This document shows, piece by piece, positions 7,179 through 53,301 of a stretch of 64,000 bases of DNA. The number at the start of each line of letters is the position of its first letter. Position 1 is the first letter of the stretch. The notes below the pieces were generated by a model. It saw only the letters and a list, made by a program, of their open reading frames with translations. It was not told the origin of the DNA and searched no databases. The DNA is from an uncultured beta proteobacterium (GTDB taxonomy: Bacteria > Pseudomonadota > Gammaproteobacteria > Burkholderiales > Burkholderiaceae_E), in contig CAIZNI010000051.1 in the NCBI GenBank assembly GCA_903934295.1, positions 1 to 64,000 of the forward strand, given 5' to 3'. The position numbers were made by a program, and so were the translations under genes.

Positions 7179-7982
7179 TCAGGCAAACAGCGCGGCGAGC
7201 GCGGCGCCCGGGTCGGGCGCGCGCATGAAGGCCTCTCCCACCAGGAAGGCGTGGACGTCGTGCGAGCGCATGCGCAGCACATCGTCGCGCGACAGAATCC
7301 CGCTCTCGGTGACGACCAGCCGATCGCCAGGAATCCGGTCGAGCAGATCGATGGTGTTCTGAAGCGACACCTCGAAGGTGCGCAGATTGCGGTTGTTGAT
7401 GCCCACCAGCGGCGTCGACAGGCGCAAGGCGCGATCGAGTTCGGCCGCGTCATGCACCTCGACCAGCACATCCATGCCCAGGCCGCGCGCGCAGGCCTCG
7501 AGTTCCTGGAGTTGGGCATCGGCCAGCGCCGACACGATCAGCAGGATGCAGTCGGCGCCCCAGACGCGAGCCTCCCAGACCTGATAAGGGTCGATCAGGA
7601 AATCCTTGCGCAGCACCGGCAGGCGGCAGGCCGCGCGCGCGGTGCGCAGGAACTCGGGAGAGCCCTGGAAAAACTGCATGTCAGTAAGCACTGACAAGCA
7701 GGCAGCGCCGCCCTGCTCATAGCTGGAAGCGATTACGGGTGGATCAAAATCGGCGCGCAGAATGCCTTTGCTGGGGCTGGCTTTCTTGATCTCGGCGATC
7801 ACCGCCGGCTGGCCCTGCGCGATGCGCGCACGCATCGCCGCCTCGAAACCGCGCGCCGGGCCCGCCGGACCGGTGTCGGCGGTTTCGGCCTGCCGGCGCA
7901 AGCTCGCATCGGGAACCTGGCGGCGGGCCAGCGCGAGTTCCTGGCGCTTGACGTCCAGGATGCGGTCGAGAATGTCGGACAT
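7179..7982 (-). CDS. trpC: indole-3-glycerol-phosphate synthase TrpC
   Basis: A 267-residue TIM-barrel enzyme that closes the indole ring of tryptophan, turning carboxyphenylaminodeoxyribulose 5-phosphate into indole-3-glycerol phosphate with loss of CO2. Signatures are [13 protein letters not shown] (catalytic Lys), [18 protein letters not shown] and TESGI. It is stand-alone, not fused to TrpF. It is the last gene of trpE-G-D-C, 24 bases after trpD. Confidence 0.95.
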
Positions 7983-8006: not shown

Positions 8007-9050
8007 TCAGGACTGGCCAGCGCCACCCAGGCGCTGGGTGACCGCCACGAACTGGTCGAGCCGGGCGCGCGCCGCGCCGCTGGCGATGGTGGCGCGGGCC
8101 AGCGCGATGCCGTCCTGGATCGAGGCGGCGAGGCCGGCGGCATAGAGCGCGGCGCCGCTGTTGATCACCACGATCTCGCGCGGCGTCCCCGGGACATCGC
8201 CGAGTGCCTCGAGCAGCATGACGCGCGACTCGGTCGCATCGGCCACCCGCAGGCTGCGGTTGGACATCATCGACAGCCCGAAGTCCTCGGGATGGATCTC
8301 GTATTCGCGCACCTGGCCGTCGCGCAGTTCGCCCACCAGCGTGGCCGCGCCGAGCGAGATCTCGTCCATCCCGTCCTTGCCCCAGACCACCAGCGCGTTG
8401 CGCGCGCCCAGGCGCTGGAGCACCCGGACCTGAATGCCGACCAGGTCGGGGTGGAACACGCCCATCAGGATGTTGGGCGCGCCAGCCGGATTGGTGAGCG
8501 GGCCCAGGATGTTGAAGATCGTGCGCACGCCCAGTTCCCGGCGCACCGGCCCGACGTTCTTCATCGCGGGGTGGTGATTGGGCGCGAACATGAAACCGAC
8601 GCCGGTCTCGCGGATGCACTGCGCCACCTGCGCGCAGTCGAGCATGATGTTCACGCCCAGCGCCTCGAGCACGTCGGCGCTGCCGGACTTCGACGAGACG
8701 CCGCGGTTGCCGTGCTTGGCCACGGTGGCACCTGCCGCCGCGGCCACGAAGGTGGAAGCGGTGGAAATGTTGAAGGTGTGCGAGCCGTCGCCGCCGGTGC
8801 CGACGATGTCGATGAAATGCGGCCCGCCGTCGACCTCGACCTTGTTGGCGAACTCGCGCATGACCTCGGCAGCGGCGGTGATCTCGCCGATGGTTTCCTT
8901 CTTGACCCGCAGGGCGACCAGGATGGCCGAGGTCATCACCGGCGACATCTCGCCGCTCATGATCATTCGCATGATCTTGAGCATCTCGTCGTGGAAGATC
9001 TCGCGGTGATCGATGCAGCGGGCGAGCGCTTCCTGGGCAGTGATCGGCAT
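8007..9050 (-). CDS. trpD: anthranilate phosphoribosyltransferase TrpD
   Basis: A 347-residue enzyme that transfers phosphoribose from PRPP to anthranilate. The PRPP loop [14 protein letters not shown] is present, as are [15 protein letters not shown] and the anthranilate-contacting NHHPAMK. It is not fused to a glutamine amidotransferase; that role is filled by the separate trpG directly upstream, 13 bases away. Length is normal. Confidence 0.95.
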
Positions 9051-9063
9051 GACGGACGTTCTT

Positions 9064-9627
9064 TCAGCGGCGCAGGAAATTGCGCAGCAGCGCGTGACCG
9101 TGTTCGGTCAGGATGGACTCGGGATGGAACTGGACGCCTTCAATCGGCAGGCTGCGGTGGCGCACGCCCATGATCTCGCCATCAGCGGTTTCGGCGGTCA
9201 CCTCCAGGCAGTCCGGCAGGCTGGCGCGCTCGATCGCCAGCGAGTGGTAGCGGATGACGGTGAACGGATCGGGCAAGCCCTCGAACACCCCCTTGCCGGT
9301 GTGGTGGATGAGCGATGTCTTGCCATGCATGAGTTCGCGCGCACGCACGATCCGGCCGCCGAAGGCCGCACCGATCGCCTGATGCCCCAGACACACGCCG
9401 AGCATCGGCAGACGGCCGGCGAAATGGCGCAGCAGCGGCACCGAGATGCCGGCCTCGTTGGGCGTGCAGGGCCCGGGGGAGATCACGATGCGCTCGGGCG
9501 CCAGCCGCTCGATGTCGGCCAGCGAGATCGCGTCGTTGCGCACGGTGAGGACTTCCTCACCGAGTTCGCCGAAGTACTGCACCAGGTTGAAGGTGAAGCT
9601 GTCGTAGTTGTCGATCATCAGCAGCAC
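9064..9627 (-). CDS. trpG: anthranilate synthase glutamine amidotransferase subunit TrpG
   Basis: A 187-residue class I glutamine amidotransferase supplying ammonia to TrpE. The nucleophile lies in [11 protein letters not shown] and the His/Glu pair in VQFHPESI. The reading frame is open further upstream, but the conserved protein starts at [13 protein letters not shown] 9627 is chosen because an AAGGAG ribosome site stands 7 bases before it, immediately after the trpE stop. It may also serve folate synthesis (PabA role), as is common. Confidence 0.93.
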
Positions 9628-9638
9628 GGCGGGGCTCC

Positions 9639-11111
9639 TTACTGCAGTCCGGACTGGACGAGTTCGGCGGCACGCAGCACGGCGCGCGCCTTGTTCTCGG
9701 TCTCCTGCCACTCGCTCTCGGGCACCGAGTCGGCCACCACCCCGGCAGCCGCCTGCACATAGAGCATGCCGTCCTTGATCACCCCGGTGCGGATCGCGAT
9801 GGCCAGGTCGAGATCACCCATGAACGAGATGTAGCCGCAGGCGCCGCCGTAGATGCCGCGCTTGGTGGGCTCGAGTTCGTCGATGATTTCCATCGCCCGG
9901 ATCTTGGGCGCCCCCGACAGGGTGCCGGCCGGGAAGGTCGCGCGCAGCACATCGATCGGACCCATGCCGGGTTTGAGGATGCCCTCGACGTTGGAGACGA
10001 TGTGCATCACGTGCGAGTACTTCTCGATGGCCATCTGGTCGGTGACCCGGACGCTGCCAGTGCGCGCGATGCGGCCGATGTCGTTGCGGGCCAGGTCGAT
10101 GAGCATCACATGCTCGGCGCGCTCCTTGGGATCGGCGAGCAGTTCGGCCGCCAGTTCCTGGTCACGCTCGGGCGTGCCGGCGCGCGGGCGGGTGCCGGCG
10201 AGCGGGCGGATGGTGATGCGATCGCCATCGGGCATGCGCTCCTGGCGCACCAGGATCTCAGGCGAGGCGCCCACCACATGGAAGTCGCCGAAGTTGTAGA
10301 GATACATGTAGGGCGAGGGGTTGATGGTGCGCAGCGCCCGGTACAAGGTGAGCGGGGAATCGCGGAACGGCTTGCGCAGCACCTGCCCGATCTGCACCTG
10401 CATCATGTCGCCGGCGGCGATGTATTCCTTGGCCTTGAGCACCGCGGCGAGGTACTGATCGCGCGGAAAATCGCGTTCGGTGGGGGTGTCGAAGCTGCCC
10501 CCGGAGTCAGGGACATCAACCGGCCGGCGCAGCATCACCTTGAGTTCGCTCAGGCGGCGGTTGGCCTTCTGGTAGGCCTCAGGCACCGACGGGTCCGCGT
10601 AGACCATCAGGTAGATCTTGCCGGACAGGTTGTCGACGATCGCGAGCTCTTCGGTGAGCAGCAACAGGATGTCGGGCACGCCGATCGGGTCGGGCTTGTT
10701 CAGGCCGGCCAGCCGCGGCTCGATGTAGCGGACGGTGTCGTAGGCGAAATAGCCGGCCAGACCGCCGCAGAATCGCGGCAGGCCGGGGCGCACCGCGACC
10801 TTGAAGCGCTTCTGGTAGGCATCGACAAAATCGAGCGGGTTGCCCTGGTGGCGTTCGATGACCTTGCCGTCGCGCACGACTTCGGCGCCGTCGGCGGTGG
10901 AGCGCAGCAGCGTGCTGGCGGGCAGACCGATGTAGGAGTAGCGCCCGAAACGCTCGCCGCCCACCACCGACTCGAGCAGGAAGCTGTTGGGCTTGTGCGC
11001 CAGCTTGAGGTAGAGCGACAGCGGCGTGTCGAGATCGGCGAAACACTCGAGCAGCAGCGGAATCCGGTTGAAGCCCTGGGCGGCGATCGCCTTGAATTCG
11101 ATTTCGGTCAT
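9639..11111 (-). CDS. trpE: anthranilate synthase component I TrpE
   Basis: A 490-residue chorismate-using enzyme producing anthranilate with TrpG. The tryptophan feedback element LLES appears in [10 protein letters not shown], and the catalytic core carries [21 protein letters not shown] and [17 protein letters not shown] 11111 gives the conserved start [18 protein letters not shown]; 14 further codons upstream are open but have no family support and a poor ribosome site. The gene follows a 300-base leader with a Trp-rich peptide, indicating attenuation control on top of feedback inhibition. Confidence 0.95.
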
Positions 11112-11258
11112 GCGATTTCTCTGGAAGGGGATCGGTATTCGATCCGCTGGCATCCGGCCGGTCGGGCCGGGCAGGCATTCAGGGGGGTGTCGGGGCTGGG
11201 CCCCTGAAACGGTCGGGGCGGCGCCGGAAAATGCACGGCACGGACCCGGGGCGTCTGG
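11112..11258 (-). promoter_or_regulatory. trp attenuator region between trpL and trpE
   Basis: The 147 bases between the leader stop and trpE hold GC-rich self-complementary segments on the minus strand: GGGGC-CCA-GCCCC and the overlapping CAGGGG...CCCCTG (about 11180-11206), which cannot form together. This is the arrangement expected of competing attenuator structures. No clear run of U follows, so a canonical intrinsic terminator is not evident; termination might be Rho-dependent or act through occlusion of the ribosome site. Confidence 0.45.
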
Positions 11259-11330
11259 CTAGCTGCGCCAGCACCACCAGCGCCAGGACCGCCAGTCCTG
11301 ACCGAGAGACGTTTCACGCAGCAGATGCAT
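11259..11330 (-). CDS. trpL: trp operon leader peptide TrpL
   Basis: A 23-codon open frame on the minus strand, ATG at 11330 and TAG at 11259, lies 147 bases before trpE. Its last eleven codons read WRSWRWWCWRS, so five of 23 residues are Trp, with one adjacent pair. Such clustering just before the stop is the hallmark of a ribosome-stalling leader peptide that senses charged tRNA-Trp. The Shine-Dalgarno is weak. A CTGGC...GCCAG inverted repeat spans the last Trp codon and the stop, as expected for the pause hairpin. Expression itself cannot be shown from sequence. Confidence 0.8.
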   Translation of the reverse strand: MHLLRETSLGQDWRSWRWWCWRS

Positions 11331-11415
11331 GATCGGGGGCAAGTTGCAAAGACTCGGACGGGGGGTGGAGAGGGTGTCGAGAGGGCCGACGCCGCGCCGG
11401 TTGGACCGGCTCGAC

Positions 11416-12099
11416 TTACCGCGACAGATGAATCAGATCGGCTGCCTCGGACAGCGAATCGACTATAGCATCAACATCCAGGGCCTGCACCGGCGCGCCC
11501 TCGTTGTAACCGTAGGGCACGATGAAGACCGACATGCCGGCCGCGCGGGCGGCGATCGCATCGTTGAGCGAGTCGCCGATGGCCACCGTGGTCGACGGCG
11601 ACGCCCCCAGTCGCGCGGCCGCGTGCAGCAGCGGCCGCGGATCGGGCTTCTTGTGGGGCAGCGCATCGCCACCCTGGATGAATTCGAAATAGCGCGCCAG
11701 ATCGCGGCGCGCCAGCAGCGGGTCGGCGAAGGCCTGCGGCTTGTTGGTGACGCAGGCCAGGCGCAGGCCAGCCGCGCGCATCGCTTCGAGGCCTTCCCGG
11801 ACACCGGCATACAGGGCCGAATGCTGGCCGTTGGTCTGCGCGTAGTGACCGAGGAAGATCGACAGCGCCCGCGCGTGCTCGGTCGGGTCGGCGCGACCGT
11901 CGGCGCGACCGGTGAGCACGCGATGAACCAGCACCTCCGAGCCCCTGCCGACATACTCGGACACCTGGCGCTCGGGCAGCGGCTCACGACCCAGGTCAGC
12001 CTGCATGAGATTGACCGCGGCCGCGAGATCGGCAGCGGTGTCGAGCAAGGTGCCGTCGAGATCGATCAGGACGGCCTGCGCGGCGAAGGACGCTGACAT
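11416..12099 (-). CDS. gph: phosphoglycolate phosphatase Gph
   Basis: A 227-residue HAD-superfamily phosphatase that dephosphorylates 2-phosphoglycolate. Motif I is LIDLDGTLLD with both aspartates; motif II lies at ACVTNKP and motif IV at GDSLNDAIAA. It sits 6 bases after rpe and before the trp genes, the rpe-gph-trpE order common in beta- and gammaproteobacteria, so it is probably cotranscribed with rpe and reads into the trp leader. Confidence 0.92.
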   Translation of the reverse strand: MSASFAAQAVLIDLDGTLLDTAADLAAAVNLMQADLGREPLPERQVSEYVGRGSEVLVHRVLTGRADGRADPTEHARALSIFLGHYAQTNGQHSALYAGVREGLEAMRAAGLRLACVTNKPQAFADPLLARRDLARYFEFIQGGDALPHKKPDPRPLLHAAARLGASPSTTVAIGDSLNDAIAARAAGMSVFIVPYGYNEGAPVQALDVDAIVDSLSEAADLIHLSR

Positions 12100-12105
12100 C
12101 GGGGG

Positions 12106-12813
12106 TCAGGCCGAGGCGCCCTGCGCACTGTCGCGCAGACGGCTCATCACTTCCGAGTAGCCGCCGCCGGGGTCGGGCGCCCCGAACACCGCGGAGCCGG
12201 CCACGAAGGTATCGGCGCCGGCGGCGGCCACTTCGGCGATGTTGTCGACCTTGATGCCGCCATCGACCTCGAGCCAGATGTCCTGGCCACCCTGCGCCTT
12301 CCAGGCGTCGATGCGGGCGCGCACCGCGCGGATCTTGTGCAGGGTCGAGGCGATGAAGCGCTGGCCGCCATAGCCCGGGTTCACCGACATCAGCAGCACG
12401 ATGTCGATCTTGTCCATCACATGGTCGAGCCAGGCCAGCGGCGTCGCCGGATTGAAGACCAGCCCGGCCTTGCAGCCGTGATCGCGGATGAGCGACAGGG
12501 TGCGGTCGACGTGGTCGGACCCCTCGGGATGGAAGGTGATGAGATTGGCGCCGGCCTTGGCGAAGTCGGGCACCAGGCGGTCGACCGGACGCACCATGAG
12601 GTGCACATCGATGGGAATGGTGGCGTGGGGGCGGATCGCCTCGCAGACCAGCGGACCGATGGTGAGGTTGGGGACGAAATGGTTGTCCATCACGTCGAAG
12701 TGCAGAAGGTCGGCACCGGCGGCCTGCACCGCCCGGACCTCCTCGCCGAGCCGGGCGAAATCGGCCGACAGCAGACTGGGAGCAATTCGACAAGGGCGAG
12801 ACGCTGTATTCAT
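12106..12813 (-). CDS. rpe: ribulose-phosphate 3-epimerase Rpe
   Basis: A 235-residue TIM-barrel epimerase interconverting ribulose 5-phosphate and xylulose 5-phosphate. Key features are [16 protein letters not shown], the metal-binding [12 protein letters not shown] and HLMV, and LEVDGGIK near the C-terminus. It is the first gene of the leftward rpe-gph-trp block and diverges from apaG, so a promoter should lie in 12814-12894. The ribosome site is poor. Confidence 0.95.
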
Positions 12814-52464: not shown

Positions 52465-53247
52465 TCAGACCGACGGATCCTTGTCCTTGGCGACGTCGGT
52501 GGCCGGCTCGGCCGGCTCGTCCGGCGCCTTGCTGCGCGCCTTCACGAAGCCCGCCATGATGATGCCCAGCTCATAAAGCAGGCACAACGGCACCGCCAGC
52601 ATGAACTGCGAGAGCACATCGGGCGGCGTCAGCACCGCGGCCACCACGAAGGCGCCCACCACCACATAGCGACGCGCCTCGCGCAACTGCTGGGTGGTCA
52701 CCATGCCGAGCTTCACCAGCAGCATCTCGACCACCGGCACCTCGAAGGTCAGCCCGAAGCCGAAGAAGATCGCGAGCGTGAAGTCCCAGTACTTCTGCAA
52801 GTCCTGCATCACGTCGGCGCCGGTGGACGAGGCAAAGCTGTAGAAGAACTTGTAGGCCGCCGGCAGCACGAAGAAATAGGCGAAGCTGATGCCCACCACC
52901 AGGAAGAACACGCTGGAGAAGATCAGCGGCACCGCGAACTTCTTCTCGTGCTCGTACAGGCCGGGCGCCACAAAAGCCCAGGCCTGGTAGAGCACCCAGG
53001 GCAGCGCCAGCAGCAGCGCGGTCAGGAAAGCCACCTTGGTGAGGGTGAAGAACGCACCCGCCTGGTCGGTGAAGATGGGCCGGGTTCCGGGCGGCAGCGA
53101 CTGATAGAGCGGCTGCGAGAGGAACTTCATGATCTCGCCGCTGAAATAGAAGCAACCCCCGAACAGGATCAGCACCAGGATCAGCGACTTGATCAGGCGA
53201 TCGCGCAGCTCGACCAGATGGGAAACGAAGCTCTCTTCCTGGCTCAT
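52465..53247 (-). CDS. tatC: twin-arginine translocase subunit TatC
   Basis: A 260-residue six-helix membrane protein that recognises twin-arginine signal peptides. The start SHLVELRDRLIKSL and the loop FEVPVVEMLL are diagnostic. Its helices are clear (for example VFFLVVGISFAYFFVLPAAY). The C-terminal tail is charged. ATG 53247 gives the conserved start; 14 further codons are open. Last gene of tatABC, 54 bases after tatB. Confidence 0.95.
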   Translation of the reverse strand: MSQEESFVSHLVELRDRLIKSLILVLILFGGCFYFSGEIMKFLSQPLYQSLPPGTRPIFTDQAGAFFTLTKVAFLTALLLALPWVLYQAWAFVAPGLYEHEKKFAVPLIFSSVFFLVVGISFAYFFVLPAAYKFFYSFASSTGADVMQDLQKYWDFTLAIFFGFGLTFEVPVVEMLLVKLGMVTTQQLREARRYVVVGAFVVAAVLTPPDVLSQFMLAVPLCLLYELGIIMAGFVKARSKAPDEPAEPATDVAKDKDPSV

Positions 53248-53301
53248 GGGGTCGGGGTCTTTACGCCTGGGAAGAAACCGGAGGGCCATCGATCGGGCCG
53301 T

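Follow-up and report, generated by a model that had tools for sequence, protein, structure and literature searches.

A short reading frame between gph and trpE, on the minus strand of a 64,000-nt stretch of Burkholderiales DNA (hereafter the window, meaning the whole stretch that was analyzed), is, judging by comparison with relatives, a genuine Trp leader that has been conserved and that belongs to a known kind. Our analyses suggested that this leader, trpL, probably senses tryptophan shortage and most likely works like an attenuator by way of a variant output step; the terminator of a classical E. coli-type attenuator was not recognized in the genus of the window. In addition, the trp unit seems to have a promoter of its own in the end of the upstream gene gph.

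Organization of the Locus

The genome to which the window belongs has a size of 4.6 Mb. In profile searches, rpe, gph, trpE, trpG, trpD, and trpC matched Pfam or NCBIfam families (Table 1). On the minus strand, rpe and gph are followed by a gap of 85 nt, trpL, a second gap of 147 nt, and then trpE, trpG, trpD, and trpC in that order. The earlier note had described a 23-codon frame with five Trp codons and a TAG stop, situated after gph and 147 nt before trpE, and translation of the strand reproduced this description exactly.

Table 1. Features of the trp locus and its upstream neighbors in the window.
Feature	Position (strand)	Remarks
rpe (upstream neighbor)	12106..12813 (-)	ORF; TIGR01163 above cut-off
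gph	11416..12099 (-)	ORF; phosphoglycolate phosphatase models above cut-off; 3' end carries the promoter element
Predicted extended -10, TGCTATAGT (TGnTATAGT)	11462..11470 (-)	gph codons GAT-GCT-ATA-GTC; conserved
trpL leader ORF	11330..11259 (-)	23 codons, TAG stop; translation MHLLRETSLGQDWRSWRWWCWRS*
trpL Trp codons (all five: codons 13, 16, 18, 19, 21)	11268..11294 (-)	Span of codons 13-21
Leader-trpE gap	11112..11258 (-)	C-rich; hairpin with U tract not found
trpE	9639..11111 (-)	Start ATG 11111 by homology to relatives; longer ATG frame from 11153
trpG	9064..9711 (-)	ORF and family match; start uncertain
trpD	8007..9050 (-)	ORF and family match
trpC	7179..7982 (-)	ORF and family match

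Conservation and Coding Pattern of the Leader

Loss of the frame or of its Trp codons in close relatives, which the earlier note had named as a refuting observation, was not observed: all 8 assessable loci of the window genus keep both, with three to five Trp codons (three in L003, L005, and L006). Of the 10 genus genomes, 2 lacked a match to trpE and stand outside this count. The variation at genus level affects two of the five Trp positions. Among 23 sequences of the window clade, RWWCW was kept in 20, and the two earlier Trp positions varied. The wider comparison started from 168 trpE upstream regions, from which L017 was left out because it had no trpE start, and merging of identical regions left 156 distinct ones. 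A Trp leader is present in 119 of these 156 by the final labels, a number that, like all locus counts given here, ignores shared ancestry, that contains two loci assigned as leader-bearing by hand (L140 and L145), and that includes two doubtful cases, namely L156, whose ORF lies far upstream, and L165, in which the wrong ORF was scored and a better one is visible. The trpE start assigned by the script was misplaced in L143 and L156. Presence of the leader goes together with a longer gap between gph and trpE, the median being 228 nt in loci with a leader (n = 108) versus 13.5 nt in leaderless loci (n = 32); gph touches trpE in most of the latter, and their gap reaches at least 90 nt in 8 of the 32.

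Several other upstream regions showed features of their own. Three loci scored as leaderless (L158, L159, and L095) contain, by eye, short ORFs whose only Trp lies toward the C-terminus (MSRLFMPLTLFAWR is one example), and these are perhaps shrunken leaders. The last 200 nt before trpE in L030 hold several repeated near-copies of the trpE start, GAATTCAGGGCGCTCGCGGCGC. Outside the order, several of the class-level loci L170-L198 carry short ORFs that close with Trp-Arg motifs some 50 nt ahead of trpE.

Leaders of the Oxalobacteraceae type share the core AW[LP]WRRWQ, which was found in 67 of the 69 loci L042-L110. A set of 68 such leaders (L042-L110 minus L064 and L095, plus L014) was picked by peptide motif, so the fixed Trp codons in this set are partly an effect of selection. 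The codon between Trp codons was Leu in 64 of the 68 (CTA 28, CTG 17, CTT 16, CTC 3) and Pro in the others (CCC 4), and synonymous variation of the Leu codon is what would be expected if the leader frame is translated in these relatives. CGA, CGC, and CAA within the core were each invariant (68/68), which hints at a constraint on the RNA besides the coding constraint. In the 23 window-clade sequences, the synonymous and nonsynonymous pairwise codon differences were 211/547 in the leader frame and 149/581 and 155/586 in the other two, a comparison that is a weak test when taken alone.

The searches of Rfam, Pfam, and NCBIfam yielded no family for the window leader, although most of the Burkholderiales loci in the comparison carry a comparable leader ahead of trpE. 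The Rfam model Trp_leader (RF00513) did not match the window at its gathering score, a search of Rfam to E 1 with L001 and the loci of ten relatives gave just two weak and unrelated matches, and the two leader peptides that were searched matched no Pfam or NCBIfam family.

A Promoter Element in the End of gph

The extended -10 element predicted in the 3' end of gph would place the RNA start near 11455, 124 nt upstream of the trpL ATG. Its gph codons read GAT-G[GC]T-ATA-GTN in 87 of the 99 leader loci in which the site could be placed. ATA occurred at the same site in 2 of 22 leaderless loci (Fisher p about 1e-12, with shared ancestry ignored), and its share of the other Ile codons in the gph ends was 74 of 393. 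ATA is missing from 12 leader loci, 11 of which belong to the sister genus g7. In 9 of these 11, a TATAGT element lies at the gph stop or behind it, and in 7 of the 9 this element is preceded by TTGACG or TTGACC at a distance of 16 or 19 nt. Placement of the gph end was unreliable in L009. Of the 95 leader loci with long flanks, 93 contain TGnTATA[GA]T ahead of trpE, and, as a control, none of the 95 contains it within the first 520 nt of trpE. The motif was also absent from the 400 nt next to trpE in all 29 class-level loci from outside the order, these 29 alone being considered from the matched loci. Both the element and the leader are present in L165, where gph was not detected in a stretch of 811 nt. 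One of the predicted distances from RNA start to leader was -248, so some pairings of element and leader are wrong.

A simple sigma-70 consensus scan listed no promoter between 5000 and 20000 of the window, the extended -10 element included. The element went unlisted owing to its poor -35 region (best 2 of 6), and extended -10 promoters are known to tolerate a poor -35. On the strength of its conservation, the trp unit seems to possess a promoter of its own in the gph end, and such an element eases the puzzle that trpEGDC lies behind rpe and gph.

The codon choice of gph at 11416-11472 (minus strand) itself seems constrained by the promoter of the next operon. We regard this as a clear example of how a promoter element can be preserved within a coding frame through an otherwise less used codon.

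Translation Start of the Leader

Computed Shine-Dalgarno binding of -4.5 kcal/mol or stronger was found at 2 of 119 leader starts. The trpE starts reached this value in 98 of 119 cases, and sites drawn at random from these regions did so in 16 to 34%, depending on the group. Within the window genus, a Shine-Dalgarno site precedes trpE in 5 of 8 loci. Leader starts were computed to be slightly more open than average. Shine-Dalgarno-like matches were also fewer at leader starts (L042-L110, and positions 11331-11350 of the window) than at random sites. Because the leader starts lack a Shine-Dalgarno site, translation of trpL is not assured, and the question is raised how a leader that requires translation manages without such a site. 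An RNA beginning directly at the ATG, of the Sinorhizobium meliloti type, would offer no explanation with the predicted RNA start so far upstream, unless another promoter exists.

Termination Signals and RNA Structure

A strict scan for a hairpin with a U tract, which together with its shuffles replaced an earlier loose terminator scan, found none between leader and trpE in the 8 loci of the window genus (shuffles 1/40). The same scan was positive in 1 of 13 loci of g7 (shuffles 2/65), in 1 of 18 further loci (shuffles 4/90), and in 37 of 68 Oxalobacteraceae-type loci (shuffles 64/340); all of these counts are lower bounds, since some terminators visible in relatives were overlooked. No RNA structure shared among the genus loci was found. 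For g7, the RNAalifold covariation term was unfavorable at +0.65 in an alignment of 12 loci, from which L112 and L114 had been left out.

Twenty-four Oxalobacteraceae-type leaders, taken from the 68 partly for having a visible terminator, align with a hairpin followed by five or six U. In their 7-pair helix, 21 cells were changed on both sides, a number equalled by 0 of 500 shuffles, and the covariation score was likewise reached by 0 of 500; its 4 covarying pairs were matched in 42 and its pair types in 251 of the 500. A candidate antiterminator pairing in these relatives hardly varies, and none was identified in the window genus. Elsewhere in the window, ordinary terminator-like sites occur, one of which, a terminator with a U tract, lies directly behind a tRNA.

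Proposed Mechanism and Alternative Explanations

In the mechanism that we propose, RNA would start at the extended -10 promoter inside the gph end, as its conservation suggests, and ribosomes would translate trpL and, under a shortage of charged Trp-tRNA, halt at its Trp codons. With the ribosome stalled, RNA polymerase would continue into trpE; with ample tryptophan, the leader would be finished and transcription would end early. A classical intrinsic terminator would bring about the early stop in Oxalobacteraceae-type relatives, and in the window genus, since no terminator is recognizable there, the stop probably occurs through Rho or a U-poor hairpin. We consider it likely that this whole model, comprising promoter, leader stalling, and early stop before trpE, is right, and with it that trpL, trpE, trpG, trpD, and trpC form one unit of which the ORF is the leader. 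More tentatively, the window genus and g7 could have kept the Trp sensor and exchanged the output, combining a leader without a Shine-Dalgarno site and a promoter located within the gph frame or immediately after it with Rho or another step in place of the intrinsic terminator that Oxalobacteraceae-type relatives retain. The reading of the earlier note is supported in part: the Trp leader itself stands, being kept in 8 of 8 genus loci, and attenuation of the trp genes in this genome may apply, but a hairpin with a U tract was recognized at none of the 8 genus loci and the leader start has no Shine-Dalgarno site.

A reading frame rich in Trp codons might also arise by chance, or as an out-of-frame artifact without function. 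The six frames of the window together hold 1,968 stops, and at 2 of them five Trp codons fell within the preceding 12 codons. When order-2 Markov sequence of the same composition was simulated (30 x 64 kb) and Trp codons were counted in the last 12 codons before each stop, none of 59,085 stops reached five, and the maximum was four. The alternative frame across the Trp cluster of trpL reads LAVLALVVLA, and one further short frame of the window that holds five Trp codons, MWWWAPSWWPRC (52667-52629, minus strand), is an out-of-frame reading within a 274-aa frame (52465-53289, minus strand) that presumably resembles TatC. This second cluster is a useful false-positive control: clusters of five Trp codons can be artifacts, and comparison with relatives was therefore needed for trpL. 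Unlike that cluster, trpL occupies the space that separates gph from trpE and is conserved, both in the window genus and across the wider set of upstream regions, and the Leu codons between the Trp codons change synonymously in relatives. A chance origin was thus rejected by simulation and conservation, and an artifact of the hydrophobic frame was rejected on the codon pattern of relatives; we regard an origin of either kind as very improbable. Control by TrpR or TRAP was also discarded, neither gene being found in the window genome (G000; no match to PF01371 or PF02081).

Granting that trpL is a true leader, the output step could take several forms. In Rho-dependent attenuation, completion of the leader would leave the C-rich RNA behind it free of ribosomes so that Rho could load, which a ribosome stalled on the Trp codons would prevent. 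A Rho gene is present in the window genome, no intrinsic terminator was found in the genus, and the surplus of C over G along the window gap is 11-18 per 78 nt, compared with a 99th percentile of 16 for the window minus strand; however, this excess is inconsistent within the genus, the median of the per-locus maximum being 11 (8 loci), or about the 95th percentile of the window. We consider this route plausible, although short of probable. A classical attenuator whose degenerate, U-poor hairpin was missed by the scan is possible but somewhat doubtful. The leader region of the window can fold into stable hairpins (z -1.90, with 5 of 100 shuffles equally stable), the classical form is present in Oxalobacteraceae-type relatives, the strict scan passed over several relatives in which a hairpin with a U run can be seen, and a hairpin ending in TTTCC-like tails occurs in several sister-genus loci. 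Set against such a hairpin are the scan results for the genus and g7, T runs of at most 4 in the gap of all 8 genus loci, the unfavorable covariation term of g7, and the ordinary U-tract terminators that the genome does have, such as the one behind the tRNA. Finally, stalling might alter a fold that hides the trpE start; translational control has a precedent in antibiotic-resistance leaders, and a leader without a terminator could act in this way. Yet the computed opening of the trpE ribosome site in the window was 0.70 with the ribosome stalled at Trp and 0.69 with the ribosome at the stop, the change was no larger than 0.1 in 18 of 20 loci, and the other two shifted in opposite directions. 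As the fold is nearly equally open in both ribosome positions, a hidden trpE start is unsupported, and we consider translational control improbable.

Comparison With Known Systems

Trp leaders with attenuation are textbook biology, and attenuation is the mechanism of E. coli trpL. The window leader resembles E. coli trpL (RF00513) in being a short ORF with Trp codons clustered near the stop, directly before trpE. It differs in having no Rfam match, no recognized intrinsic terminator, and no Shine-Dalgarno site, and in having gph upstream; E. coli trpL has a Shine-Dalgarno site and two Trp codons, compared with five in the window leader. Outside the enterics, trpE and trpGDC of Pseudomonas putida are reportedly regulated by attenuation, going by the title of the 2001 article of Olekhnovich and Gussin. 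The sources covered by our literature search contained no paper on a Burkholderiales trp leader or on a promoter inside gph, and an earlier report of such leaders is possible; the 2004 work of Vitreschak and the 2008 work of Merino are likely places for a list of betaproteobacterial trp attenuators.

The trpL (peTrpL) RNA of S. meliloti begins at the ATG and hence has no Shine-Dalgarno site (PMC7298713). It likewise encodes a Trp leader peptide before trpE, but it belongs to an attenuator with a terminator (PMC7298713). The RNA start predicted for the window leader lies 124 nt before the ATG. In the cys operons of Mycobacterium, conserved Cys leader peptides occur with no conserved terminator, and the authors propose Rho as a weak prediction and suggest Rho for terminator-less leaders in Actinobacteria (PMC1262725). 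These leaders are like the window trpL in their regulatory codons near the stop and in having no conserved terminator; they differ in amino acid, operon, and phylum.

The Oxalobacteraceae-type trp leaders have the same position between gph and trpE, the promoter element in gph, and no Shine-Dalgarno site, but differ from the window leader by their core, AWLWRRWQ, and by the hairpin with a U tract that many of them carry. Taken together, the loci form a natural series in which a terminator is present, none is recognizable, or the leader is lost together with the gap, and this series may help to show in what way the output of an attenuator is altered while the sensor stays.
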